Source: Hydractinia symbiolongicarpus (lineage: Eukaryota; Cnidaria; Hydrozoa; Anthoathecata; Hydractiniidae). From it: a stretch of 64,000 nt of DNA. Where the stretch lies: assembly GCF_029227915.1 (NCBI RefSeq), contig NC_079876.1, positions 13,084,001 through 13,148,000 of the forward strand. Direction: 5' to 3'. Positions 3,821 to 50,736 of the stretch are shown here, piece by piece. A program made the translations under genes and the position numbers. The notes below the pieces were generated by a model. The model had not been told where the DNA came from. It did not search any database and saw only the letters and a list, made by a program, of their open reading frames with translations. Positions within the stretch are counted from its first letter, which is position 1. Each line of letters opens with the position of its first letter.

Positions 3821-6800
3821 ATGGCAGCCATGCAGCATGCTGCACGTCATATTTCAAGACTTAATTTTGCTGCAAATCTGTCATTCCTTTTTCCTGAAAT
3901 ACCTGATTTTAAACAGCGGTATGCAGCTGCTAAGGAGGCAGGTAGTAAGCAGTTTTTCTTCTACATTTCTTTTCAACTGTAAGCAACCTGTTATTCATGC
4001 ATCTTGAAGGTCGAGAGAAGGCTCCCCAAAACCCTCTTCTCGCTATGCTTCTTACCACAAGCGTAGGGTACAACGCAATTTAAAGGGACAAATGTATGTG
4101 GAATTTAAGTGGACGGAGTGTCCATGGTAATTACTTCGGATTAAATAAGAATAAATTACAGACAGAAATATAGTTAGAGAAATAGAGAAAGAACGACTGC
4201 ATCTTATTTTCATAGCTTAGCTATTAGCTTGTAAATTAGAAAAGCTAACTGGAAAATAACCAAACAAAGAAAAAAATATTATTAGCTATAGCTATATTTT
4301 AATACTATATAAACTAGTCGATAAAGCTCATGAAAAAATTCACAGGGGCAGGATAAAAATGAAAAACAACCGTCATTTAAATTTTGATGACGTCAGCAGA
4401 GACATGTCAGAACACAATTTTTTTTTAGAAATGTGTATGCCTGTTGCCTTCATCGTATAGATCTTGAAACGCTGATCAAGAAAATATATAGGATCGCGTA
4501 TTTTTGACAAACGGTTGCAGAGATATTAGGGTTTGAAGGTTTTTTGATGACGTCATCAACCCGTCCATTCCAAAAACGGATTCGGGGACGCAGGTTTGGG
4601 AAACTTACCCAAATTGGTCCCAGGTGGTCCCTAGTTACCTATGCAGGGGATGACGTCAGTTATTTCCACCCGTTTCCAAGTTATTTAGCCTTAAATTTAA
4701 AAGTGCAATTCAATGGCTTCACTAATCTTAATATACTTTTCTTTGACGTCAATATTGCTTTAACGTCAAACTTTGCTAATTTACAGAACAAATTTTTAGG
4801 CAATATTTTATAGACTTTATCAAAGCAATTTTATCCACTTTGCAAAAGTGACAGACAGACAGAACTGGAGTATTATTATATAGATTAGATGTTCTTGCAA
4901 AGGTGCACAATTAACATAATATGGGCATGTTTATTACAATGGAAAATTACACCTAATCAAATAAATACAATAGTGCTGACCTGATGTTATTATTAAGTAC
5001 AGGAATTATCACGCAAGATGAAAAGGCTCTCTTTGATTTCAAGTGAGAAACGATTATTCCCATGTGTAAGAATGCTAAAATTGTCAAGAGACAGAACGTA
5101 GTTGTTGCATTGTTTTAGATGATCTTTAATAGCAGATTGTTGCATTGACAACGATTTCTTACTTATATTGAAGGTGAAGGGTCTCCTTAAGAGACAAGAG
5201 AGGAGTTGAACGTCCTCCACCATACCTTAGTTTAAAGGGTCGATTGTGGAAGTCCCATGAAATGCCACATAGTGATGGTGTCACTTTAAAAAACACCCAG
5301 TCCGGTCTGTGAACGGTTGGCGCTAGGAAGGGCATCCAGCTGTAAAACAATGCCAAAACTCTTTATTAATGGCCGTAAGAATAGTTGATCAGACCAAATG
5401 CGTAAACGGGGCTGGAACTCTAAGGAGTGAAGGTGTCGCGCACGGTAGGACAGATGTCAGATGTGAGCATTGTCAGACCGTTACCCAGCTATCACATCAA
5501 AAGGTAGATAACACTAGGCTGAGGATGGCTAGTGTAAATGTTGGTACTCTGAGAGGTAGAGCAGGTGAAGTAGTTGAAATGTTAGAACAAAGATCTGTTG
5601 ATATGTGTTGTGTTCAGGAGGTTAGGTGGAGAGGAGCTTCAGTGAGATTTGTTGAAGGTAGGAGGGCAAGGTATAAGCTTTTTTGGATTGGTAATAGTGA
5701 TGGATATGGAGGGGTTGGCATATTCGTTGCGAAGAAGTGGGTAGAAAAAGTAATAGATGTTATGCGTGTTAATAGTCGTATTATAGTGATAAAGTTTTTG
5801 ATAGGTAATAGGATTGTCACTTTTCTGTCAGTTTATGCTCCACAGTGTGGACTCAGTGAGGAAGATAAAGATAAGTTTTATGATGAGTTAATAGCAGTCA
5901 CATCAAAGTTTGGAGACACTGAACTTGTCATGGTGGGCGGCGACTTTAATGGTCATGTTGGGAAGTCATCTGAAGGTTATAGGGGTGTGCATGGAGGCTA
6001 TGGATTTGGGAGCAGAAATAAGGAAGGGGAGAGATTGCTTGAGTTTGGAATGGCAACGAACATGGTGGTTTGCAACACAACATTCAGTAAGAGACAGAGT
6101 AGGCTGATAACATATGAGTCAGGTGGTTGTAAGACACAGATAGATTACTTTTTGGTTAGAAAGTCAGACAAGAAAGTGGTGAAGGACGTGAAAGTTATAT
6201 CGGGGGAAGAGTGTGTTTCCCAGCATAGGTTGCTGGTTTGTGATATTATCTTGAAGAGTGTTAAAGAAGCCAAGGGAAAGTACAGGCCCCGTCGAAAAGT
6301 CTGGAAGCTGAAGGAAGAGATTGTAGCAAGACAATTTAGTGCAAAAGTTCAGCAGTTAGCCTACAATAGTCAATGTGATAGTGACAATGTTGAAAGTACT
6401 TGGACTACTTTGAAGAATTGTCTTCTAGAAGCTTCTGATGATACCTGTGGGTGGACGAAAGGACCAGCTAGACATAGACAGACCTGGTGGTGGAATAATG
6501 AGGTTGACCAATGTATAAAGGAAAAGAGGAAACTTTGGAAAGAGTGGAAGTCAGGTGGTAGTAAAAATATTTACTTAGAAGCTAAGCGTCGCGCTCGTAC
6601 AGCAGTGTATAAGGCAAAATCAGAAGCAGAGAGAAACAGATTTGCAGATGTGTTAAGAAGGGAAGACCAGCGCAATGAGGTATTTAAGATAGCAAAGCAA
6701 ATGAAGAAGACTAATCAAGATATTGTAGGTGAGAAGTGTATACATAATGATGAAGGTGTTTTGGCTAGCACAGAGGAGGAGAAAAGGGTAGCTTGGAAGA

Positions 6801-9800
6801 ATCATTATCAGAGGTTGCTTAACACTGAGTTTGATTGGGACGAGGATAATTTGTCTGATGATGATGTCGTAGAAGCTATGCAGATCAAGACAGAATGGGT
6901 AGTGGAGGCTATTAGGAAATTGAAGATTGGCAAGGCTGCAGGAGTATCAGGTATTGTTGCAGAGATGGTAAAAGCATCTGGATATATTGGAGTTGAGCTT
7001 ATTACAAGTCTTGCTAACCAGATTATAAAGGATGGTGCTATTCCGAGTGAGTGGCAGTCGAGTGTAATAGTGAACTGTTTTAAGGGCAAGGGTGATGCAT
7101 TAGAAAGGGGTAACTATAGAGGTTTGAAGTTGGTTGATCAAGTAATGAAAGTTATTGAAAGAGTGATTGATAAGTTACTTAGAGAAAGAATTGATATAGA
7201 TAAGATGCAATTTGGTTTTGTTCCAGGGCGTGGCACTACAGATGCAATATTTTTACTCAGACAGCTTCAGGAAAAGTATTTAGGAAAGAGAAAGAATCTC
7301 TATTTTGCCTTTGTAGATTTAGAGAAAGCTTTTGATAGAGTGCCACGTAAAGTTATTTGGTGGGCTATGAGAAAATTAGGTGTGGATGAGTGGCTAGTTA
7401 CGATGGTTCAGTCTATGTACAGCAATGCTAGAAGTCGTGTCAGGATTAACGAGGATTATTTGGTGGGCTATGAGAAAATTAGGTGTGGATGAGTGGCTAG
7501 TTACGATGGTTCAGTCTATGTACAGCAATGCTAGAAGTCGTGTCAGGATTACCGATTCACTTAGTGATTAATTTAGTGTAAATGTTGGTGTACATCAGGG
7601 TTCTGTACTTAGTCCTTTGTTGTTTATTCTACAATCCTGGCCAAAATTGGTTGAGAAAAGGCCAAACACATGTGGATTTATTATCTTTATTATCATTATT
7701 TTTGTTTCTGTCGTCCCATGTGTAGAGATTCTCTGTTTTGTTGACATAAACTAGCCAGCAAAATTGTGGTATGTGTATACTAAAACAGTGCAGGTTTTCA
7801 CTTATAGAATAGTAGCTAGTTTCCAGTCCCCTCTCCCCTATTTCAATGTTGAAGTCATTGTCACTGTCACATTGTCACAGTTGGAAAAATGCAGTTGGCC
7901 ACTCAACCCACAGCCAGCCATTGGCTTCAACATTGAAATGGGGAGAGAGGGGGGCTTGCATCTTTGTTTATCTTATAAGCTTATGTTGCATTGGAAATTT
8001 TATCAACAATTTTGGCCAGGATTGTAGTCTTAGAAGCGCTGTCGATGGAGTTCAGAACAGGTTGTCCATGGGAGTTATTGTATGCAGATGATTTGGTTCT
8101 CATAGCAGAGTCGATGGAAGAATTAGTTGAAAAGTTTGAGAAGTGGAAGAAAGGACTAGAAGAGAAAGGGCTGAAGGTAAACACAGCAAAGTCTAAAGTC
8201 ATGATAAGTAGCATCGCAGCCAAGTGTGACCTTGTAGTTGGAAAGTGGCCTTGTGGAGTTTGCAGGAAAGGGGTTGGTAGTAACTCAATTTTTTGTCAGA
8301 CTTGCAAGCATTGGGTACATAAGAAGTGCAGTAGTATTAGTGGAAGGTTAAGAGCTGACATACAGTTTGTATGAAAGCGTTGCAAAGGTGAGATTATAGA
8401 GAATGAAGTATTTCCAGCTTTAATGATGTACAACAGTGGCTCGTTAGAGATAGTTAAGAACTTCTGTTACTTAGGTGATATGTTGGGCATTAAAGGGGTG
8501 TTGGAAGAAGTGTTACTTGCAGGATAGGTTCTGCTTGGAAAAAGTTTACAGAGTTACTTCCTTTATTGACTAGCAGAGTCCTGTCAATTGAGGTAAAAGG
8601 TAGGTTGTATGAGGCCTGTGTAAGAAGTGTTATGTTGTACGGTAGTGAGACATGGGCAGTGAAGCAGGAAGATCTTGACCGTTTAGAAAGGAATGATATG
8701 AGAATGGTTAGGTGGATGTGTAATGCCAGTCTGAGAGACAGAAAGAGTTCAGATGAGCTAAGAAGCAGGCTAAGTCTCCGTAGAATTAAAGATGTTATCC
8801 AGATAAGAAGATTGAATTGGCTGGGGCACTTGTAAAGAATGGAGGAGTATAATTGGGTAAGACAGTGTAGAGACTTGATAGTTCCTGGGGCAAAGCCCAG
8901 AGGCAGACCGAGAAAGACTTGGAAGGAGGTTATAAGAACAGACTTGATAGAGAGGAAGTTGAGTTTAGATCTAACACAGTCTAGATCAGATTGGAAGAGG
9001 GTCATTAATATACCCCGTCCAACCCATGCTAGCATGGAAAACGGACGTTAAGCCGAGAATGATGATGATGATGATGATATTATTATACATATATTATAAA
9101 CAATGTTTTTAAACATTATAGTGAGGGAGGGTAATGATAACGTCATATCACAAAACTTTGTTTTTCTGCTAGGTGCAATCGACTTAAATTACCTTTGTTG
9201 TAAAATTGTAAAGGCTATGGTAGCATCTTTAAAAGTAAAAAGAATTGTTAGTTCGTAACTGTCTTGTTCCACACTTTTTCGCAATTCATTGAGCATAATT
9301 TTATTAATTATTACGCCTTTAAGGAAAATTATTACACTGTAAAATTAAGCGATTTAGCAGAAACTGCACTGTATGTGAATAATACAACTAAGCTCTGAAA
9401 AAGAAACATTAACTGTCTTATAAATAATTAACATCAATAACTTTTTACAACAGGTACTTCAAATGTGTTATTGTTTACATCTATAAGAAGTAAAAAATGT
9501 GTTTTCCAATGTAAGCAAGTTAATAAACACACTGCAATAAGATTAGCCATACAACTTGGCGTAATTAAATTGTCTAGGTCACTCGGTAACATGGATTCAA
9601 CCTTGACATTGAAGCGTAAAAATTTCCCCCATATCAACATGAAACTGATATCTATTACTCTCCTATTCTGTAAAATATACATAAGTATCCAATCAAAACA
9701 AATGGCGACTCTAAAAGCTATAATGTTAATAAGCGGGAATGGTATTTCCATCGGAATAAAAGCGAAAGTTGCTCAGACGTGATAAAAACTTGTTATCAGC

Positions 9801-34502: not shown

Positions 34503-37153
34503 GATCTTATAAGGGGTAATGTGGATTTTCCCAATAACATGGCGCTTTCTTAACTGAGAAAAGACTTGGAAGGGTTAACTTTAAATTTTTTTACCTATAA
34601 TTACAAGACATTAAATTTTCTACTTCGCTGTCACATGTGATTACATTGGTTGTTTCTATATTTGAGTCTCTATATTTGAGTTGCATGATATGAAATCTTA
34701 GGTATTAGGTTACATGGTTAAATTCATAGTCGTGAAGGGTGCTAATTGTTGCTAGCGACATCAGTATACATCCATTTTTCCAAAAATTACAATGAGGGAT
34801 GGAGGGCAGAATTTTTTTTTCTCTGTTTAATGGAATTATTATCACTATCATCATCATTAATTCTCGTAACGACGCTTCTATTATTTGTAACGGGTTTTTT
34901 AGAAGTTACTCATTCAACATTTTTTAAAATGTAACGTAAAATTCAACATTTTCAAAAAGTTTTAAATAAACACTCCTTAAAAGAGACGGGATTTGATTTA
35001 TTACACGGGTGTCTATAGAAAAGATTGAAAATGAGGTGACCGATAAGGAGTCTCAAATAAAAGGGAAGTGTTTACCAGAGGCGGTGCAGAATTGAAAAAA
35101 GTCAAAACTATTTGACAAAAAAACTGATGTTACTTTTGTCTTGATTATTCAAGTTTAACATCTGTTAGATAAGTAAGTAACCGCTACTTACGCTGGTGAC
35201 GTAACTATACTGTTTTAATTTTAGATTCTCGACCAGATTACCGACGTTGTTCGATATTATTAATACAAGCTTTCAGAAATGGAAGGTTTGGTCGTATTAC
35301 TCTCGAAACGTCAATGTTACGATGGATTGTGTTACCGTAAATTCTCTAATTTACCGCGTGTTCTAATTAACGCGTGGCACCATTTTTTTTAGGAAAAATC
35401 GTAATTTATTTCCGTGTACTTATTAACGCGTAGCCGAAATTCAGAATAATTTATTTCCATCCAATTATTAACGCGCAGCTGAAATTCAGAATAATTTATT
35501 TCCATCCAATTATTAACGCGCAGCTGAAATTTAGAATAATTTATTTCCATCTAATTATTAACGCGCAGCCGAAATTCAGAATAATTTAATTTGTGTCTAA
35601 TTATTACGCGTAACCAAACCGTAACGATAAACATTTCCTGGTTGCAAAAAAACACTCAATAAGAGATTCTTTTTTATAAATTTCAACTTTCCAATTATCA
35701 ACCCAGATATTTCTGGATATTTTACAAATCAGTTAAAAATGGATCATCATTATCGTCTTCTTCATCGTCAACACACTTTAAAGCCTTTTCCCTCGAAGTT
35801 TTTAATCCCTACAAATACAAGTTTTAACGTCCCGCAAACTTCCCCGTATTTAAATAAATAAAATTTTTACGATTTGTTATTCTTACACAAGAAAATGCTT
35901 TCCGTAAAATATAAAATGTATTTTTCAGCAGGATAATTAATGCTTTACATTTTCTGAATGAAACATTGTTTTTCTCACGACACAAGAGTTTAAGAGTGTT
36001 GAGAACGAGACTAGTTGACTGTAACAAAACCACATGACTTTAAACATGCATCCATCCATGCTACGAAAATACATCAAACAAAATTTGTTTCACAGTACAC
36101 TTGCTGAAAATACGTTATTTTATGAGAACTATGTAATTTGGCTTTATGCTCAGATGTAATTTCTATAATTTTTCGCAAAGTAAACAAACTTGAAAAGCTA
36201 CAACAATTGACTCTGCGAAAATTTCTCTGCGCTGAAAGATGTATTTCTTCATATTTGTTGTGAAAAGAATATCAGTAAATATTCAGCCTTTCTATTTCTC
36301 AAAATTTGTTTTTATTTCTCAACCACATCCAGCTTCCTTGTTCTTATTAGTTGATATAGTTTAAAAGAAAAATAACATGGATTTATACTTACAAATTAAA
36401 TTAATCCGTATGAAATAAATATATATATCAAATAAATACATAGAAATCAAATATACAATAAAAAATAATGTATGTACAATAATAAAATAAATAATTCGAG
36501 CTGCAATTTTTTTTCTTCATCTAAAAAATAAAAGTTCATTAAAAATGTGAAAATTTTTCCCAAACATTAAACTCAAACAGACTGGCGAAATTACACTCTC
36601 GAATAATTGATAAAACATTTTAAACTCCCAGAATTTTACGAAATTTCACTAAGAAATTATCTCACCTGGTGAAACGATTGTTATTTTTTCATATTAATTT
36701 CCTGAGACATTTATCTCCTCTTTCCATCCTATAAAAATATTTTAAAATATTTAAATATAAACTCGTAACATATAACTAGCTGTTTGATTGTTTATTCTCG
36801 TTTCATCTAGTTGATAGAGGTCTGGGTACGAAGTTTTATTTTACCTAGTATTCAAATTATTTTTATATAACTACATGTTTTTGTTCAACATTTTATTTCA
36901 TCTTTTTCATCTGTTTAAACCAAAAATATCACATCTAAATATTTAAAACTTTATTCATTAATTTAAATTATTTTTTGTTAAAGTATTTTACTCCGCTCGA
37001 AAACTGATCATTCCTTCCTGTTTCTTTTATAATATTTATATATACATTTTTATTCCTTATTAGCAAGGTAACAAAAATGATTAAATTAATTAAATAAATA
37101 AGATACAAAATTTACTCTTCTTTCTAATTTATTAAATCAACTTAATAACTTAC
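34503..37153. other. Intergenic, mostly non-coding
   Basis: Contains the 45-bp tandem repeat block at about 35330-35625. Otherwise very AT-rich with no supportable exon. If the ankyrin exon's donor is used, further minus-strand exons should lie here, but none is convincing. Confidence 0.4.
35330..35625. repeat. 45-bp tandem repeat with TTAACGCG boxes
   Basis: About four to five copies of a 45-bp unit. It contains CCAATTATTAACGCGCAGC, then GAAATTCAGAATAATTTATT. Six or seven ATTAACGCG-like boxes are present. The leftmost part (TTACCGTAAATTCTC) resembles the start of the element at about 1128-1143 (TACCGTAAATGACAG), so the two may belong to related repeat-box families. Confidence 0.8.
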
Positions 37154-37635
37154 TTCGTATTCTTTTATTTTTCGTCTTATTATTTCCCGCTTTTGTTCAT
37201 TCTTCAATCTTCCAGCAACATCATAAGCTGTTCTTCCAGCTCCATCTTCGATCGTCACATCAATATTTTCATGACGTAACAAAACATCAACACATGAGAT
37301 GTTACCAAGCGCTGCAGCACGATGTAATGGTGTGCGGTTGTTAACATCTACACGGTTGATGTTTGTTACATCATGTCGACATAACATATCTAATCTTGTG
37401 TGACGATCATGATATGCAGCGTAATGATAACTGTTTTCTTTCCATCTATTTCCCGCCCAAACATCACTCCCATATGAGATGAGTATTTCCACCATTGATG
37501 TATTGTCGGTGTGAAATACTGTCCACATCAATGGTGTGTATTCATGTTCATCTCTCATGTGAACGATGTTTGGATGAATGGATAGTAATTTTTTCAGTTT
37601 CTCGAGATCGTTAGATTTAATAATTTTCACGATAT
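37154..37635 (-). CDS. Ankyrin-repeat exon of a longer gene
   Basis: A 482-bp exon: acceptor TTTTTAG at its 5' side and donor GTAAGT at its 3' side. If the donor is not used, the frame stops at 37142-37144 after EVSY. Encoded are about three ankyrin repeats, recognisable by TPLMWTVFHTD, SYHYAAYHDRH and TPLHRAAALGN helices followed by VDVLLRH, plus a partial fourth (GRTAYDVAGRLKNEQ) and a basic helical end. Ankyrin repeats mediate protein binding. Neither the upstream exons nor any other domain were found, so the protein's role is open. Confidence 0.8.
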
Positions 37636-39302: not shown

Positions 39303-41820
39303 TTATCAGATCTGCAAATTATTCTGCAACATATAAATATTGCGGAGCTACGCGTTGTAACCTAAATGTAAAGTTAAAACTTCTTTTTTAAAACTGGGCG
39401 TCAAATTCAAAGAGCCGTCGTATTACAGTAAAATTGAATCTATTATAATGTGAATTTACAAAATATACGCTTCGATTATGACAGTTAGCTAGTCCTATTG
39501 CTACCCCAAATGCTACCGCAATGCTTTTAATAACCCCACGCGAAAAAATTATTTTCATGCGAGAAGAATTATTAAATCTTTTTATGTAGGATTACACCAT
39601 ATTTTTACCGTTTTTTAATTTGCCACACTATCCTTATAATAACATATATTTATACACCCTAACAACTTTTCTATTAGCCTGCGATACAAGACCCAGGACC
39701 AGAAAGAAACGCATTGTTAAGGTATCACTATTTCAAATTTTAGCCTCGTCTTTTTCTCAACCAACTCCTAGCTTGTTGTTTTTCTTCATATAAAAAACTG
39801 AGTATGTGGGATTTAATAGATGTTGCTGTGTAATGCTTATGAAAATTTCACAAAAAGGTTTTTCGGTTTTTCACTTTACTTATGTCGTCATTTTTTGTGT
39901 AACGAAGAATACACGAAACAAGCGCTCGCAGAGAATCTGTGCCTCCTGCTTCATATTTAACTTGAATTTGGAATTACTTATGGATAGTAAAGTTGATAGT
40001 TTTTTCAGATATGGTCTTTTTTGCTTTAGTGTTAAAATAATTTATTTTGAGCTAATATGGTGGACAACACCATTCTAAACCCTCAAATTTCCGTTTATTC
40101 ATATGCCTGGCCATAGCACATCTCCATATTTGTCAGTCATATACTTTAAAACTTTGAATATTAGTTTAATTCAGGCTTAACGATGTCCAAAGAATACTGT
40201 AGACTTTTTTATAGGAATATTACCTCCTAAAAGACAATTTCAAGTGCTCTAAAAGTATAGCGAGCATAGTCATACGTGTCAACAGCTAACATGCTATAAA
40301 GTTCAGTGAGAGAATTACATCCCTTTAAAGTCAGGTGATACCATCGTTCATATATTTTTAGCTAATTAGTTTAACAGTCAATCTTCAACAGTCTGAATTG
40401 TTGACTGGTACCTTAGAAGTTTATAATGCCTCTGAATTATTTCTGTAGACCAATTCTCTATTTTTTTTAGTTTTAAGCCTTACAATTTTAAAAATATTTT
40501 TTATCAGTTATACTAATGTTTAACAAACAACGTATATGGCTATCTATTTTGAATCTGGAAAACTACATTGCAATAAGTGCTTAATTAACCACCTTCCAAT
40601 AAACCTTCCCTTTCATCAAGCTCTAATTCCCAAGAAGACCATTTCTGACAAAAGAACTTTATAGTATGCTAAAAGTTTGTATCCTCGTCAGCAAAAAACA
40701 TTAAAGTAAAAAAAAAGACAATGAATTGAAGAATCTGTTGGCACTAGCCTTCACCGAGTACTAACGTGGATTACAAAGGGTGTGTTTCTTATCAAAACAG
40801 TTTCAAACTGAAAACTTTCAAACTGAAAACAGTTTCAAACAAACTCTTTTTGAATCTACATAATTAATTATGCCACTGTAAATATATTTTCTTGAGTATA
40901 AATTTAACCAACCTCTACCAACGCAATTTATTGAAAAGAAAGTTAAATTATAATGAAAGCTTTAAACGTTTCCGTGCATCCCAAACACTTGCCTCGTTTT
41001 GATTAACCGCAAATGGATATGGAAAATGTGGTATTGTAATAATAAGAAACATTTGATTTGGGAGTAGCGTTTTGACAATAGTAGCAAAGTTAGAATTTCA
41101 TGATTTTATGGTCAATATAAAAGAATTCCATGTTTTACTTTAGGCACTAAAAGCATTTCCCGTTGACTTTTAAGTGGACGATATGTTACGATATGTTACA
41201 GTAATTATTAAATATTAAAATGTTTCACAATCACTTTGACTAAAATCTAGATCAAAAATATATGGCCAAGTTTCAGTTTCGTTACTATTCTTTAAAATAA
41301 ATATACAGCGTTGACTAAAACTTGCTGATACAAATTCCCTGGTCTAAACACGTTATTTACGCAATCTAAAAATCTGCTCGAGTACAGAACAACTCACTTT
41401 ACGCGATGTGTAAATGCCCTATAATTGGTTCAAAGAGGTCATGCTTTCGTTTTCGGACTTTGCTGAATATCGAAAGATAAAACCGGAAGTCTGTTAAAAT
41501 TGAACTTTGATGTTAAGAACGTGCAATAGTTACTTTTATCAAATGAAATCATGTATATCTTCATCATCACATCATCACATCAGATACATCTTCATCATCA
41601 CATCACATCAGATGTACATCTTGTACATCTTCTGTTTAAATCATGGATTTTAACAGAAGATGAACAACTTCAACCAGCCTTCATCTGAAGACTATATTAT
41701 CATCCCTTAGTTTGACTGTGCAAAGATACCCAAATTTTCATTCTTAGCAAAATCAAAACCTTTTTTAATGACACTACACGGAAAGCAATTAATTCATTTT
41801 TTAGAAAAATTAACTCTCTT
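39303..41820. other. Non-coding stretch downstream of the TIR gene
   Basis: Last exons and 3' UTR of the minus-strand TIR gene should lie here, since its last visible exon ends in a splice donor, but I could not place one. A short CATCATCACAT-type repeat is at about 41560-41640. Frames at 39806-40078 look random. Confidence 0.35.
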
Positions 41821-42128
41821 AAATATTTAATACTCTAATTTAATACTCTAATTTAATACTCTAATTTAATACTCTAATTTAATACTGAATATTTAATACT
41901 CTAATTTAATACTAAATATTTAATACTCTAATTTAATACTCTAATTTAATACTAAATATTTAATACTCTAATTTAATACTCTAATTTAATACTCTAATTT
42001 AATACTAAATATTTAATACTAAATATTTAATACTCTAATTTAATACTCTAATTTAATACTCTAATTTAATACTCTAATTTAATACTCTAATTTAATACTA
42101 AATATTTAATACTAAATATTAAATAATA
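41821..42128. repeat. 13-bp minisatellite (CTCTAATTTAATA)n
   Basis: More than 15 copies of a 13-bp unit CTCTAATTTAATA with interspersed variants containing CTAAATATTTAATA. It begins 45 bp beyond the last visible exon of the TIR-helicase gene, so it lies in that gene's next intron or 3' region. Confidence 0.95.
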
Positions 42129-42172: not shown

Positions 42173-45100
42173 CTTTAAAAGTGACAGATTTATCTACATG
42201 ACCTGATGGAAGAGTATTTCTAAAAATAAAAAATGAAATGCCCAATGAAATAAAAATAACCATACCTTTAGAAAACCAATAGTAAAGCCGCAAAAAAAAA
42301 CTTACACATGTCGATACGATACAACACTTTGAGCTTGACCAGAGTCGTTACTAGCCAAAACACGAAACTTGTATTTATTTCCAATAACTAAATTATTGAT
42401 AACACATCCACCAAACGTGATGATATGTTCTATGTTCTGCCATTGAGATCTGTCGTTTTCCATTTCAATTACGCAACGATATCCTTCCTCATTCCAATTA
42501 ATTGTACAGGAATTGTCGTTTGAAAAATTGCAGATCACGTTAATTGTTGGAGGCTGGAAACTAGAAAATAAATTTGGAGATTATAAGGGTATAACAGTTT
42601 ATATTTTTTAGGAAGGATGGAAGGAATTAGTCTGATGATGATGTTGTAGCTATTTACAATATGGTTTACAATACGGAGACATAGAACAACTTTATAAAAA
42701 AAACGTTTCTATAAATCCAAAATTGCAATAATTATTATACCGACTGATAACCTCCTTATACTTCAAATAAATAACAAAGATATATTTACTTTTTACGTAT
42801 GATTTGTGCGAAATTAGGCGTGTCTGATTCATCCTTTTTATATTCGATCTTCTTTATCCGTTCCATGAGACTTTTGTATCTGCACGAATTTGTATTCACA
42901 TAACCTATCGATTTTCTGTCATTAACTTGTGTTTCAATGTAATCTTCATTTGAATCTTTGCAACATTCCACAGAAACTTCATTCAGGTACTCTGGTAGCA
43001 GATCTTTAATGATATGTCCAGTTGATGAATTAATAGCAGCAGACTGTATGTTACATGCGCAAACAATTATCAGGCGTTCAGTTACTCTGGACATGCCTTC
43101 TAACGTCTTATGTCGCAACATAGTGTCATTTATGTCAATACAACATACGGTTTCACAAAATTCTGTTCCTCTACTACCTTCTACATTAGTAATTAGATCA
43201 TAACCTTTGTTTTTTGGAAGATTGGTAACGACATTGCTTCTGTCGATGATGTTCCATTCTGTTTGTTTGTTATAAACAAAATAATCTTCTCCGATCAAAT
43301 CCAAAACTTTTCGAAACGTGATCATTTGTTCCACAGTATTATGAAAAAATAATCGTTTAATATTAACACGATCTAGGTAGTATTCCAACGAGAGAGCTAA
43401 CATGACAATACTTTTTTCTTCTGTTTCATTTCCATAATTAAGATGTATCAGTATTGGCTTTCTACCTTCAATGTTATGTCCAACTGCTTGGGCGGAGTTG
43501 CATTTCACTTTGGTCAAGGTTTTCACATCTTCAGAAACACCTGGGTAATTTGAGACAGCTGCAATTTCCTCTATATCCACTGGTTCTTCAAAAATCTTTT
43601 TACTTTCTTCTCCTGATTTCACTTGTGAATTTTTTATTTCTAAGACTTTACGCTGCTTTGAATTTTCTTGAATGGTAGAGCTGGTCGTTCCAGATTTTGC
43701 TGATGATGTTTCATGATTTTTGTCGTGAACAGGATGTTTGATAACTGATTCAATCCCGGAAATTTTCTTCTCAAATTGTACCAAGAAGTTAAAATTTTTC
43801 TTCGTTGTTCGCATTGCTTTATTGAGGTAAAACACACGCATACCAGCTTCTTCGTATTTGTATTTATCATGGCTTTTTGATTCTCCAGATGAAACCAATC
43901 TCCTGTGCTTTTCCAAAGATTGCAGAAACAACACAATTATGGAATTCTGTAAAGCTTCTTCCCTTTCCAAAATCTGCTTCAACAATAAAGCTTCTTGTTT
44001 GTCAAACATCGCTCCATCAACTTCGTCACTTATAAAATGAAATGACATACCACCGTGATTCTTTAACAACAACAGTAATAATTGGGATAAGGTTGGAAGT
44101 TTAGAGAGATTGAGCTCTTTTGCTAATTCAATAGCATTCTTTACTTTCAACGTGATATTTTTATTGCATTGAAATGTTAAAACGAATTCTTCGACCGCAT
44201 TCAGCAGTATTGTTTTGTCACTCCATATAACATAATATATTATGCATTTTCCTTCACAACATTGGCAAAGATGTTTTAGATGAGATAAAGCAAGAACCGA
44301 TTTACCACTTCCCAATGGTCCCACGATAATTTTCTTTTTAGATTCGTTAAACAAAATATTCGACTGCTCAGATGACAATAGGACAGTGCATATTTTCCCA
44401 TGAATGTCATCTTTGATTGTTGGAACAGTGTTCATAGTTTCCCTACTAGCCATAAAACACATTGCTTGACCCAATATGTTCATATATTGTTCTTTAATTT
44501 TATTATCAGGATATCTTCTTGTTAATTCGAGATTCACAAAAAACGTTCTAACCTTTGAGTCGTCTGAGAAAATAGACTGATCTAACAATTGACAGTTTGC
44601 ACAAACGTCGATGTTCTCTAACTTTGGGAAATTTGGTGCAGCAACAACATTTATAAATCTGGATGTACTATCCAAGATAAATTGTCGATTGATTGCAAAC
44701 AAATGTTTGATATCTACCTCACCATTTTGAAATTCTTCCTGAATAATTGTGGCACTAGTAGTCTTAGTGTATCTTATGTTGACGAAGGTATTTTGAGATG
44801 GATGGAGCAGCAGAAGTCTGTGTTTATAATCTGGAACATGATCACAATAAGTATTAAAATTTAGAAGTTTCAGATTGTCCGTGGTATTGTAATGTGTGAA
44901 AATCACAAACACGTGCCTAATTTCACTGAGAATTAACTTTAGTCGAAATGCAAAGCTGGAAATCTCTTCATTTACCATTGGTGGTGGAAATTGAACAGCT
45001 TCTTTTAGAAAATCATTGTTAGATGTGCAGTTTTCATTAACATAATTTCTTGAAAATCTTAAGTATTCGCTTCTACTTTTTTCATGTACTTCTCCACAAT

Positions 45101-47380
45101 AGAGCAGCTGAATGTCAGTTTCAAGAACAGGGGTGCTGATAAATGACTTGATATATGCTGCAACTTTGTCACTATTATGTGTATGGAGAGAAAATTTACT
45201 TTCTTTGTTGTAATACTTGTGAGCGCAGGCAATGTTGACATCTACAAATAGTAATGACAGTGACGAATAAAATTTTTAAAACAATTTTTTTTAAAAAAAA
45301 TTAAAAACCTAATTAGTTACTACTTACTGTCTACTTCAAAAATCTCTTTATTTTCATCAATGTCCAGCAACGATATGACAAGTTTTAGGATGTACCGGGT
45401 AGCTGCCTTATATATTGTTAATACAAGCTTATTGTCTCTCATTTCTTCATAAAAGTCAGATGATTCTTTCAGTTCTACCTTGGTATCACTACCGTTCTGT
45501 TGTATAGTAATTCTCTGAACGGTTTTTAAGTTTTTATTATGAAACTTAACAATGATATTTTCTTCTTTGTCTTTATACATCCAAAAACTAAAATTAAAAA
45601 TATAGTTAGAACCTAATTTTTTAAAATATTTGTCAACGAACTTTATATTTCTGTATCTATATTATAATACCCGTATACGTCTGTCTGTCTGTCTGTCACA
45701 CAAAATGGTACCTCAAGTATTGCCACACACGCAATTAGGTATTAAAAGGACCGAACCCGGGGATTTTTCCACGGACCACCGACTAGTACTTTATGATATT
45801 AATTAGGAGTCTATATTGCTGTTGTAATAAAACAACGAGAAGTTTAAAGTAGATGCAAATTAAAGAGTTGAAGCTTGTTTATGATTAGTTTGAATTAACT
45901 AATGTCTTTTTTTTACTGACTTTATAAGCGTAGAATAAAGTAAGCCTTGTAAAATCATTATTATTACTATTATTACATTTCTATAGGAGGTGTTTTAGCA
46001 TATAAAATCTCTTTTTCTGAATCATCAACAAATCCGCTGAATTAAAATTTCAACGGTATAAACAATCGACAACAAGGTGCGAATGTATAATCTGCTTTAC
46101 ATGATGTCGCCTAATGTTTTTTTATCCCGATTTATAAGGCAGTATAATGTCAGTTTTCTAAAATCATTTTTCTTACTATTATTATATTTTTAAAGAAGAT
46201 GTTTTACCATTCAAAATATCTTTTACTGATGTATAAAGAACTGATGTTGCTTACTACATACTTGTAACAAGAACTTTTAACAAGAATACACTTAGTAATT
46301 AAATTTCAAAAATACGAAAGAAAGACGCTATTGTTAAATTTATATACTTTTAGGAAATTTTTCCTGGTTTAATAGATAAAGATAAAAAAAACAAAAAGGA
46401 AAACAAAAAAACATGACAAACAGAATATTTTTTTTTTATTGTAGAGAAATTTGTGACACTTACTTCAAAATGGGCTCAGTCTTTACTGGAGCTATCATAA
46501 ACAAGAAAATAAATCAAAGCAAAATAGTTAAAACAAAAGTATAAGGAAAAGAACCCTAGAAATTTAAACTAAATCATTAAATACACTATTATTCAATAGA
46601 AACGCAAAGATCTAGCATTTCAACAAATTCAGTGTAACAAAATAGACTGAATTTACATGCGTTAGCTGAGGACTCATTAACAATATCCACAATTTGTGGT
46701 TGTTATGGGTTGGCTAGCTACAGATTTATTTGAACCCTACTTCAAAAATAACCTTTTTAAAATAAACAAACATTGGTCTAATGTAGTAGTTTCTTTTTGC
46801 TTTAATCGAACAAAGACGGGGGGAAAGGTAATCAAAAAAATTCTCAAAGTTTTGCGAACTACAAGTTTCGACGACCTTTAGTATTTCAAACCATACACAA
46901 GATGACACAACGATAAAACAGTTTTGCAGTTTTTAAATCTACAACTGAAATGCACATACCTTCTCCTAATAGCTGTTGTGAGATGTCTTTTAATAGATTT
47001 TGAAAAATTGTTTCATCACCTCTGTATAATTGGTAGTACATGTTATTGCCTAGGATCAAACTGAGCACATTGTCTGCTGGAGGTTTATAACCTTTCTCAA
47101 CTATTACACAGATAATTTTCTTGTGTTGCGCACAGGCCAAGTTGTATTCTTTCTGACAGTTTTTAGATTCTTCATATCCCTTTGAAAGTAAAAGAATGAT
47201 CAACTCTGATCCTGCAACGCCTTCTGCCATCCGTGCACCTAAATCTCCATACACATGATCTTCATCAGTCCAAACAGAGTAACCCTGTTTTAATAATGAC
47301 TCTTTAATCCTTTTCATGTACTCCTTCCCAGACGCATGATGGTAGGATATCATAATATCCCAATTTGCTTTGGTGGCCAT
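42173..47380 (-). CDS. TIR - SF1-helicase-like P-loop - fibronectin III protein (3' end missing)
   Basis: Exons: 47380-46960 (TIR), 46491-46464 (28-nt microexon), 45587-45328, 45241-42790, 42560-42306 (FN3), 42219-42173. All are GT/AG and join in phase; about 1150 residues so far, ending at a donor. TIR (residues 5-140): WDIMISYHHAS, YSVWTDEDH, and NCQKEYNLA with Glu78 at the position of the TIR NADase Glu. The large exon has Walker A GPLGSGKSVL, Walker B-like FISDEVD, a QSLEKHR segment, a motif V-like GSRGTEF and a motif VI-like EGMSRVTERL, in SF1/UvrD order. FN3: PPTINVICNF, INWNEEGYRC, YKFRVLASNDSGQA. The second coding third of the N-terminal part is unrecognised. Probably an intracellular innate-immune sensor or effector, by inference from TIR plus P-loop. 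The start is the ATG at 47380 in AAAATGGCC context. Confidence 0.8.
45656..45786 (+). mobile_element. Mini-Helitron in an intron of the TIR gene
   Basis: It begins TCTATATTATAATACCCG after A, has a GTCTGTCTGTC tract, and ends with an imperfect CCGGGG/CCACGG hairpin and CCGACTAG before T. Near-identical ends to the copy at 3082-3208. It lies in the intron between the microexon and the next exon, antisense to the gene. Confidence 0.8.
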
Positions 47381-48819: not shown

Positions 48820-50630
48820 CATATCCGACGATAATTTTCTTTTTAGATTTGTGAAACAAAATATTTGACTGTTCAGATGACAATAGAACAGTGCATATTT
48901 TCCCATGGATGTCATCTTTGATTGTTGGAACAGTGCTCATAATCTCTCTACTGGCCATGAAGCGCATTGCTTGTCCCAATATGTTCATGTACTGCTCTTT
49001 GCTTTTCTGATCAAGATCTTTTCTTGTTAATCCCAGAGATAGAAGGAAATTTTGAACCTTTGTGTCATCTGAGAAAATTGACTGATCTAACAATTGACAG
49101 TTTGCACAAACGTCGATGTTCTCTAACTTTCGGAAATTTGGTGCTGCAACCACATTTATAAATCTGGAGGTACTATTCGAGATAAATTGTCGATTGATTG
49201 AAAACAAATGTTTAATAACTACTTCACCATTTTGAAATTCTTCCTCAATGGTTGACGCACTGGTAGTTTTAGTGTATCTTATATTGACGAAGGTATTTTG
49301 AGATGGATTGAGCAGCAAAAGTCTGTGTTTGAAATCAGGAACAGGATCACAGAAGGTATTCAAAAATGACGAACACGTGTCTAATTTTACTTAGAATTGA
49401 CTTTAGTTGAAAGGCTAGCTCGGATACCTCTTCATTTACCATTGGTGGTGGAAATTGAACAGCTTCTTTTAGAAAATCATTGTTAGATGTGCAGTTTTCA
49501 TTAACATAATGTCTTGAAAATTTTAAGTATTCGCTTCTACTTTTTTTTTGTACTTCTCCACAACAGAAGAGTTGGATGTTAGTTTCACTAAATAGAGAGC
49601 TGATAATTGACTCGATATGTGCTGCAATTTTGTCACTATGATGTGTATGGAGAAAAAAGTTACTTTCTTCGTAGGCATACTTGTGAGCGCAGGCAATGTT
49701 GACATCTACAAATATTAAAGACAAAAATGATAAGAAAAGGTTCAGTGGACATGTTAAAGAAAAAATAATTTAATTGTAATTGGGTGACTTACTGTCGATG
49801 TCAAATAATTTTTGCTTTCCTTCCATATCAAGCAGTGCTATGGCGAGCTTTGCAATATATTGGACGGCTTCTTTATATATCGTCAATACAAGTCTATTGT
49901 CTTTTCTCTCTTCATGGTAATCTGTTTCTTGCAATTCTAGCATTGTATCTTCCCCTTTCCCTTTTTTGAACGCTTTGAATGCTTTTATCATGAAACTTAA
50001 CAACCATACCCGTGTTTTTATGCATCCAAATACTTAAAGTTTAATATATGGTTACAAGCTAGTGTATAAAATTTGTCGAGACACTTTATGATCCTGTAAT
50101 GCCTTTTAATATCAAATTTAAGTCTATATTATAGTGATAATAAAACTAGTTAATGATGAAATATGATATTTAAAGTCGACGCTCTTTAAAGTGTTGAAAA
50201 TTTGTTTATGATGAATCTCAATAAGTTAGTATAGTAATGTACGTGGCTATCCATTTGTAAACACAGATGTAGCGCTGAAAGCAATGTTAGAAAACAAGAA
50301 ATACCGATGTTGAAATAAAAATGTTTTGCCTCTCTGTCTCAAAATTTTGATGGAAATGAATCATTTAAGTTAATAATTATTATCTTTTTGTAAAGTTGGA
50401 GCCGCGCTGAGACGGTAAAATAATCGTCTGAGACAAATATTTTTCTATCGGACAGTGTACAAAATCAATTGTTGATAGAATTTTCCTTTCTTCTCGCCAA
50501 TCAATAAAATTTCCAGTAATTGTCATAACTCTTTTTAGCTCATATGCCTTAATATATTTGTAAACAAATAAAAAAGTTATTAAGGAACTTTTTAAAACTT
50601 ACTTGCAGGCAGGCACATTGGTTACTGGAA
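48820..50630 (-). pseudogene. Decayed tandem copy of the TIR-helicase gene
   Basis: Exon equivalents: 50630-50603 (28-nt microexon), 50032-49792, 49705-48826. They match the neighbour's exons 2, 3 and the first third of exon 4 (for example NENCTSNNDFLKEAVQFPPP in both). Damage: exon 3 is 19 nt shorter with a frameshift near an A-run (about 49965); a roughly 41-bp deletion near 49350 shifts the frame between IRHVFVIF and the HRLLLL segment; homology stops after KKKIIVG, the first residues of Walker A. No TIR exon is visible upstream to 52 kb. A GTAAAT at the break could be the original exon donor left by an internal deletion of about 1.8 kb. Non-functional as a helicase. Confidence 0.8.
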
Positions 50631-50736
50631 CTAAAAAAAAAAATGAAATTAAAATATTTAAAACAAAAGCATGAGGGGACAATAATCTTAATAATATATA
50701 CTAAATTACTTTATATATACGCTTTTATTCAATAGA

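Follow-up and report, generated by a model that had tools for sequence, protein, structure and literature searches.

NLR proteins of cnidarians and fungi are among the closest described counterparts of the gene analysed here. In a survey of cnidarians, HEPN_DZIP3 and TIR are common partners of NACHT: LRRs aside, HEPN_DZIP3 is the commonest one in nine of the species surveyed and TIR in C. xamachana; the resulting TIR-NACHT and HEPN_DZIP3-NACHT proteins have interchangeable N-termini and an effector-switch domain order (PMC8260672). More widely in animals, a survey of HEPN domains lists fusions of DZIP3-type HEPN domains with NACHT, ankyrin, CARD and other domains (PMC3710099). In Podospora NLRs, positively selected ankyrin (ANK) sites lie, with one exception, on the concave face, and NLRs with highly conserved ANK, WD or TPR repeats diversify at the contact face and exchange among members, according to the excerpts used (PMC4986451).

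A gene of Hydractinia symbiolongicarpus shares these features on a different chassis. Cnidarian NLRs have a central NACHT, whereas the Hydractinia family has an SF1-helicase-like ATPase followed by C-terminal fibronectin type III (FN3) and ANK domains. Podospora NLRs are, in the excerpts used, STAND NTPases that change repeat number among near-identical repeats, whereas in Hydractinia a whole four-repeat exon is apparently exchanged beside an SF1-like motor. Group 3 Schlafens (SLFN11, SLFN14) differ in that the Hydractinia family adds TIR or HEPN, FN3 and ANK, and its fourth exon gives no Pfam Schlafen-core match; the SF1A helicases UvrD, Rep and HelD differ in being only about 12% identical, and the Hydractinia core sits in a multidomain receptor. 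RIG-I-like receptors also carry a helicase-fold motor in a cytosolic receptor, but theirs is an SF2 helicase with CARD and no ankyrin sensor, as opposed to an SF1-like motor with ankyrin repeats. No description of this family was found in the literature searched, most subscription journals lying outside it; a paper on the immune repertoire of Hydractinia (Gene 2019, 684:104) may mention the genes. So far as that literature goes, the receptor plan is known, and the combination of motor and sensor looks new for animals.

Gene structure

Within the 64,000-nucleotide window, an eight-exon gene runs on the minus strand from 47380 to 36711 and corresponds to RefSeq LOC130629511 (protein P0001, 1320 residues), probably a computed prediction. 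Its 3963-base coding sequence, assembled from the eight exons listed below, translates exactly to P0001.

46960..47380, minus strand: exon 1, start codon and TIR domain (Pfam TIR_2, E = 9e-18; splice sites and phase)
46464..46491, minus strand: exon 2, linker of 28 bases (GT/AG, in phase, agrees with P0001)
45328..45587, minus strand: exon 3, a small domain rich in beta strands that HEPN members share
42790..45241, minus strand: exon 4, an alpha/beta region at the N-terminal end and a pair of RecA-like lobes resembling those of SF1 helicases (motifs, model, fold matches)
42306..42560, minus strand: exon 5, FN3 domain (Pfam fn3, E = 1e-4)
42173..42219, minus strand: exon 6, short hinge (splice sites, phase, RefSeq match)
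37154..37635, minus strand: exon 7, ankyrin repeats, predicted hypervariable sensor cassette (Pfam Ank_2, 2.7e-28)
36711..36728, minus strand: exon 8, final five residues and stop (coding sequence equals P0001)
48824..50736, minus strand: degenerate partial second copy, matching exon 3, the first part of exon 4 and the introns around them

The original prediction, drawn from the letters of 42173..47380, had joined six exons across five in-phase GT/AG introns into a single protein with a TIR domain, an SF1-type ATPase and FN3. This was borne out: all five introns have GT/AG borders and keep phase, the 1154 joined residues are identical to P0001 residues 1–1154, and the three domains do share one protein, the first and last by Pfam (TIR_2 and fn3) and the ATPase by fold and motifs. 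The range itself held six correct exons but was incomplete: a 4.5 kb intron has its donor at 42173, and the ANK exon (37635–37154) and the last exon lie beyond it. The joining is not a product of chance, because paralogs P0002 and P0004 have the same order of TIR and core and because the multidomain open reading frames of the HEPN-bearing members P0010 and P0018 sit on Logan contigs (3960 and 4575 bases) that are likely to be spliced transcripts.

The smaller domains are less sharply defined. The strands of the exon 3 domain come from a first, lower-confidence structure model, and the domain is 23–35% identical in those distant members where it was detected. The fn3 match of exon 5 scores 22.8 bits, slightly below the curated cut-off of 25 bits, and recurs in nine of 12 family members (E up to 1). 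The degenerate copy is 77.9% identical at the DNA level over 1346 columns and also matches the stretch directly upstream of exon 2; it changes frame near 49360, its match stops at the P-loop, and no TIR was found beside it.

A predicted SF1-helicase-like central ATPase

Across 32 sequences of the core, Q303, GxxGxGK, DE, R488 and G702 are invariant, and R701 and R729 are present in 90% or more. These residues, which we take to represent SF1 motifs Q, I, II, IV, V and VI, occur in that order on two RecA lobes. The first structure model (of P0003, from 12 sequences) reached a pLDDT of just 60.6, and ankyrins took up its VIA search; an AlphaFold model made for the core from the alignment of 32 sequences has pLDDT 84 and pTM 0.85. 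Over both lobes this model matches Schlafen 11 and 14 (SLFN11/14), which are best, and UvrD. Foldseek TM-scores for these matches are low, at about 0.3; SF2 helicases and restriction motors come close behind UvrD in E-value, and the rmsd is near 16 in most Schlafen superpositions, with the other SLFN superpositions listed spanning 8–17.

Profile comparisons reach SF1 weakly. In the PDB, HelD is matched at 0.05 and Schlafens at 0.1–0.2, with unrelated chains in between (DUF2280-type, 0.08; DotB, 0.11). The hhalign results are all weak, with probabilities of 27% over 37 columns around the P-loop against three E. coli SF1 proteins, 32% over 141 columns around the P-loop against HelD alone, 8% over 89 columns against MalT (STAND), and 0.3% over 45 columns away from the P-loop against RhlB (SF2). 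The SF1 module of the original prediction is upheld by fold (SLFN11/14, UvrD) and motifs; Pfam does not add to this, its P-loop matches in exon 4 all being sub-threshold. A STAND or NACHT core was the alternative fold, and the original prediction had named it as a refuting result. In exon 4, Pfam matched neither NACHT nor NB-ARC with E values allowed up to 10, and NPHP3_N stayed under the Pfam cut-off (0.012); AlphaFold-model matches and motifs favour SF1, and a STAND/NACHT core was set aside. With the same limit, exon 4 gave no Pfam match to a Schlafen core (AlbA_2 or the Slfn box), and the SLFN helicase part PF09848 was matched in one of six proteins, at an E of 0.046, below the Pfam cut-off. 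The best reading of the model is a central ATPase that is SF1-helicase-like, with a fold closest to Schlafen and UvrD.

Relatives of the core were also sought outside animals. With one or two short patterns, 105 matches in bacterial and archaeal genome contigs and 53 in viral contigs yielded none that was confirmed. With E values allowed up to 1, exon 4 matched no PADLOC family, and the PADLOC matches of the whole protein (PDC-M72A, 9e-11; SAVED_TIR, 3e-6) come from its ANK and TIR parts.

Different N-terminal domains across the family

Protein searches gave a family set of 33 proteins, comprising 21 named Hydractinia clusters, seven from Logan and five from ENA; this size is a lower bound, given clustering at 90%, length limits and about 8000 candidates scored in two of three protein searches. 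At least 21 named Hydractinia genes share the core: 15 of the 21 lie on one record of 39,956,072 bases (39.96 Mb) and the remaining six on six other records, one each. P0029–P0033, from ENA contigs, are distant relatives (19–26% identical). The N-termini are TIR, DZIP3-type HEPN or unrecognised, and P0011 and P0023 have N-terminal stretches without a match in any other member. Precomputed Pfam places TIR in three of the 33 proteins and HEPN_DZIP3 in 11; P0010, P0021 and P0027 have homologous N-termini, which brings HEPN to 14 of 33, with a sub-cut-off HEPN_DZIP3 match in P0027 (1.6e-4) and none in P0010 or P0021. All 14 HEPN members carry the RNxxxH motif. The order of effector (TIR or HEPN), ATPase, FN3 and ANK repeats matches that of NLRs.

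In a tree of the core (31 rows, 28 of them close members; P0032 and P0033 left out), the basal split of the close members has HEPN on either side, and the three TIR members form one fully supported clade with P0003, whose listed isoform is without TIR. The simplest reading of this tree is that HEPN would be the older state and TIR one replacement, a reading that leans on P0010, the sole HEPN member on the TIR side, where it sits on a long branch next to another. The TIR fusion on which the original prediction centred is real, but it belongs to a family rather than to a lone gene, and because HEPN is commoner there (14/33 as against 3/33) it is probably one lineage-specific swap.

The best solved relatives of the TIR domain are the catalytic TIRs of SARM1, RPP1 and TIR-1 (E from 5e-4 to 1e-3, these limits belonging to SARM1 and TIR-1). 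Unlike in SARM1 and TIR-1, no ARM or SAM domain was recognised in the Hydractinia protein, and the position of the catalytic glutamate depends on the alignment: in that of HMMER the glutamate of the SARM1 HKEI stretch, which we assume to be the catalytic residue of SARM1, faces a lysine. If the stretch is instead aligned by hand with NCQKEY, a glutamate that all three TIR members possess comes to face it; this residue could be a candidate replacement in a putative active site.

Variation in the ankyrin exon

Among 21 ANK domains, predicted contact positions average 2.58 bits as against 0.68 at the other 113 positions (Mann–Whitney, 2e-12; the pattern had been noticed by eye before the test, and the p value conveys its sharpness, not surprise). 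Contact positions were taken at offsets −4, −3, −1, +7 and +8 from the threonine of TPLH, with +4 added after the profile was seen; the face follows from these offsets rather than from coordinates, and we take the offsets to be the positions randomised in designed ankyrin proteins. In those proteins, six positions per repeat are randomised, on the concave face. Adding the two remaining offsets of the designed proteins gives a contact mean of 2.07, still above 0.68, and every other register between −6 and +6 stays far below 2.58, the next best giving 1.55 bits. Position 42, one of the 24 designated, is invariant in a tight set of 16 sequences, and eight other positions exceed 1 bit in that set. 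This tight set was made by dropping P0015, P0017, P0018, P0024 and P0027 after the alignment had been inspected; these five of the 20 other ANK-bearing members, at 41–60% ANK identity, lie outside the exchange pattern described below.

For 15 sequences (the tight set minus P0021), 105 pairs were compared. The 56 pairs with core identity below 0.5 (mean 0.38) have identities of 0.89 in the ANK framework and 0.26 at contact positions; where core identity exceeds 0.7 (32 pairs, mean 0.87), the corresponding values are 0.89 and 0.25. The other 17 pairs, with core identity of 0.5 to 0.7, entered the rank correlations only, and over all 105 pairs the Spearman coefficients are −0.08 for core against framework and 0.04 for core against contact. 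Because ANK similarity is thus unrelated to core identity, the ANK part has, as judged from these 15 sequences, a history separate from that of the rest of the gene. Compared with P0001, nine members with distant cores are identical at 21–30 of 80 FN3 positions and at 23–28 of 30 positions at the start of the ANK exon (25 of 27 in P0016): in the aligned proteins, the identity step falls at the ANK exon border as placed in LOC130629511. Genes of the family appear to exchange this four-repeat exon in one piece.

Could such variation arise without a sensor role? In a family with fast birth of genes, a weakly constrained exposed face might drift while gene conversion homogenises the rest of the cassette; paralogous exchange is visible and a decayed copy adjoins the gene. 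We regard this as very improbable. In repeats 1–3 the concave set reaches 2.65 bits as against 0.58 for the outer helix and loop, which are presumably exposed too, and weak constraint should not follow one face with the precision of register seen here.

The same surface bears on what the receptor would sense. The original prediction described an intracellular sensor whose helicase part could detect viral DNA or RNA; the protein is indeed most simply an intracellular receptor, but the assignment of sensing to the helicase part is not supported. The hypervariable surface that one would expect a sensor to have is on the ANK exon, which the original prediction did not include. A version in which the SF1 core senses foreign DNA or RNA, as in RIG-I-like receptors or SLFN proteins, while variation of the ankyrin face is driven by a host partner, a guardee or a viral antagonist that it binds, is one we hold to be unlikely while giving it some weight: the fold is SF1/Schlafen-like with conserved helicase motifs, and Schlafens and RIG-I-like receptors act on nucleic acids. 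Yet the most variable surface found is that of the ANK repeats, the part that the surface analysis covered. The Pfam families shown for the gene and family members include no recognised separate domain for nucleic-acid binding, and such binding is not a requirement of SF1-like switches.

Instead of defending against pathogens, the family might serve allorecognition or somatic incompatibility, as HET/NWD NLRs do in fungi. Allorecognition is strong in Hydractinia, and P0024 (LOC130635930) is near Alr1 (LOC130635943, chromosome 3 complex), though by number only. The regime of a conserved frame, diversified contacts and exchange among paralogs also resembles that of fungal NLR repeats in the excerpts used (PMC4986451). 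Against this, 15 of the 21 named members share the 39.96 Mb record whereas P0024 is on one of 37.0 Mb, and the published determinants, as far as the consulted text names them, are Alr1 and Alr2, both membrane proteins (PMC11067881). A self/non-self role seems improbable to us.

A proposed receptor family

The reading that we favour, and judge to be probably correct, is a family of intracellular receptors on the NLR plan in which an SF1-helicase-like switch replaces NACHT/NB-ARC and an exchangeable, hypervariable ankyrin cassette is the sensor. We infer its immune role, NADase activity, ligand and mechanism as follows. The ankyrin repeats would bind a ligand (a foreign, modified or self-marker protein) on their concave face, and the FN3 hinge would pass this binding signal on to the SF1 lobes. 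Closure of these lobes on ATP would expose or cluster the TIR domain, which might then cleave NAD+ or recruit partners, with defence or cell death as the outcome; sister members, which have a HEPN RNase in place of TIR, would release that instead. New specificities would come from exchange of the whole ankyrin exon between genes together with divergence at its contact residues, a pattern visible in the alignments.

On a bolder formulation our judgement is evenly divided: that this is a receptor class, neither NLR nor RIG-I-like, defined by an SF1/Schlafen-like motor, swappable TIR or HEPN effectors and germline, single-exon ankyrin cassettes that vary almost only on a paratope-like face. Within that formulation, and with the same even balance, these cassettes would be a natural counterpart of designed ankyrin binders.

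If this is right, the NLR plan has arisen in an animal on another motor, with anticipatory-looking diversity carried by ankyrin repeats. The family would show a way in which invertebrates can achieve variable recognition inside cells with neither LRRs nor immunoglobulin domains. It would connect Schlafen-like ATPases with effectors of the TIR and HEPN kinds and provide a testable model in a colonial animal kept in the laboratory. Genome surveys of immune receptors would also need widening, as screens based on NACHT or RIG-I would miss these genes.

Further features of the window

The following features lie in the same window as the TIR-bearing gene LOC130629511.

48824-50736 (-): decayed partial second copy of LOC130629511, similar in DNA to the region of exon 3 and the first part of exon 4
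41820-42113: tandem repeat rich in A and T (period 13/67/93), inside the long intron of LOC130629511
24260-29592 (-): series of ORFs with weak matches to Bro-N (0.006) and DUF3627 (0.007)
5327-8374 (+): non-LTR retrotransposon-like pieces with endonuclease, reverse transcriptase and PHD-finger matches

The second copy is 77.9% identical to LOC130629511 in DNA over 1346 columns, covering exon 3, which encodes a small beta-rich domain, and the start of exon 4, the helicase-like core; the similarity ends at the P-loop. A search of the window for a second TIR or HEPN remnant gave only chance-level matches. The tandem repeat closely follows the short hinge exon (exon 6) and precedes the ankyrin exon that appears to have been exchanged between family genes.

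Within the series of ORFs, stretches resembling DNA polymerase B were recognised by eye only and have no Pfam match; the series may be an integrated element of virus-like or Polinton-like type. The first retrotransposon-like piece combines endonuclease and reverse transcriptase, the second reverse transcriptase and a PHD-finger match.

Individual family members

P0024 (LOC130635930), on a record of 37,015,953 bases, has a LOC number near that of Alr1 (LOC130635943), a gene in the allorecognition complex; this proximity refers to the numbering only. In P0021 (LOC130612446), a very long array of near-identical NKDNIQQNEDGIKQNQDDIKA-type repeats, probably a coiled coil, separates the HEPN start from the core. 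The N-terminal region of P0011, from a Logan contig, comprises ~600 residues and has neither a Pfam match at E ≤0.05 nor a match among the other 32 family proteins; it may represent a third effector type.
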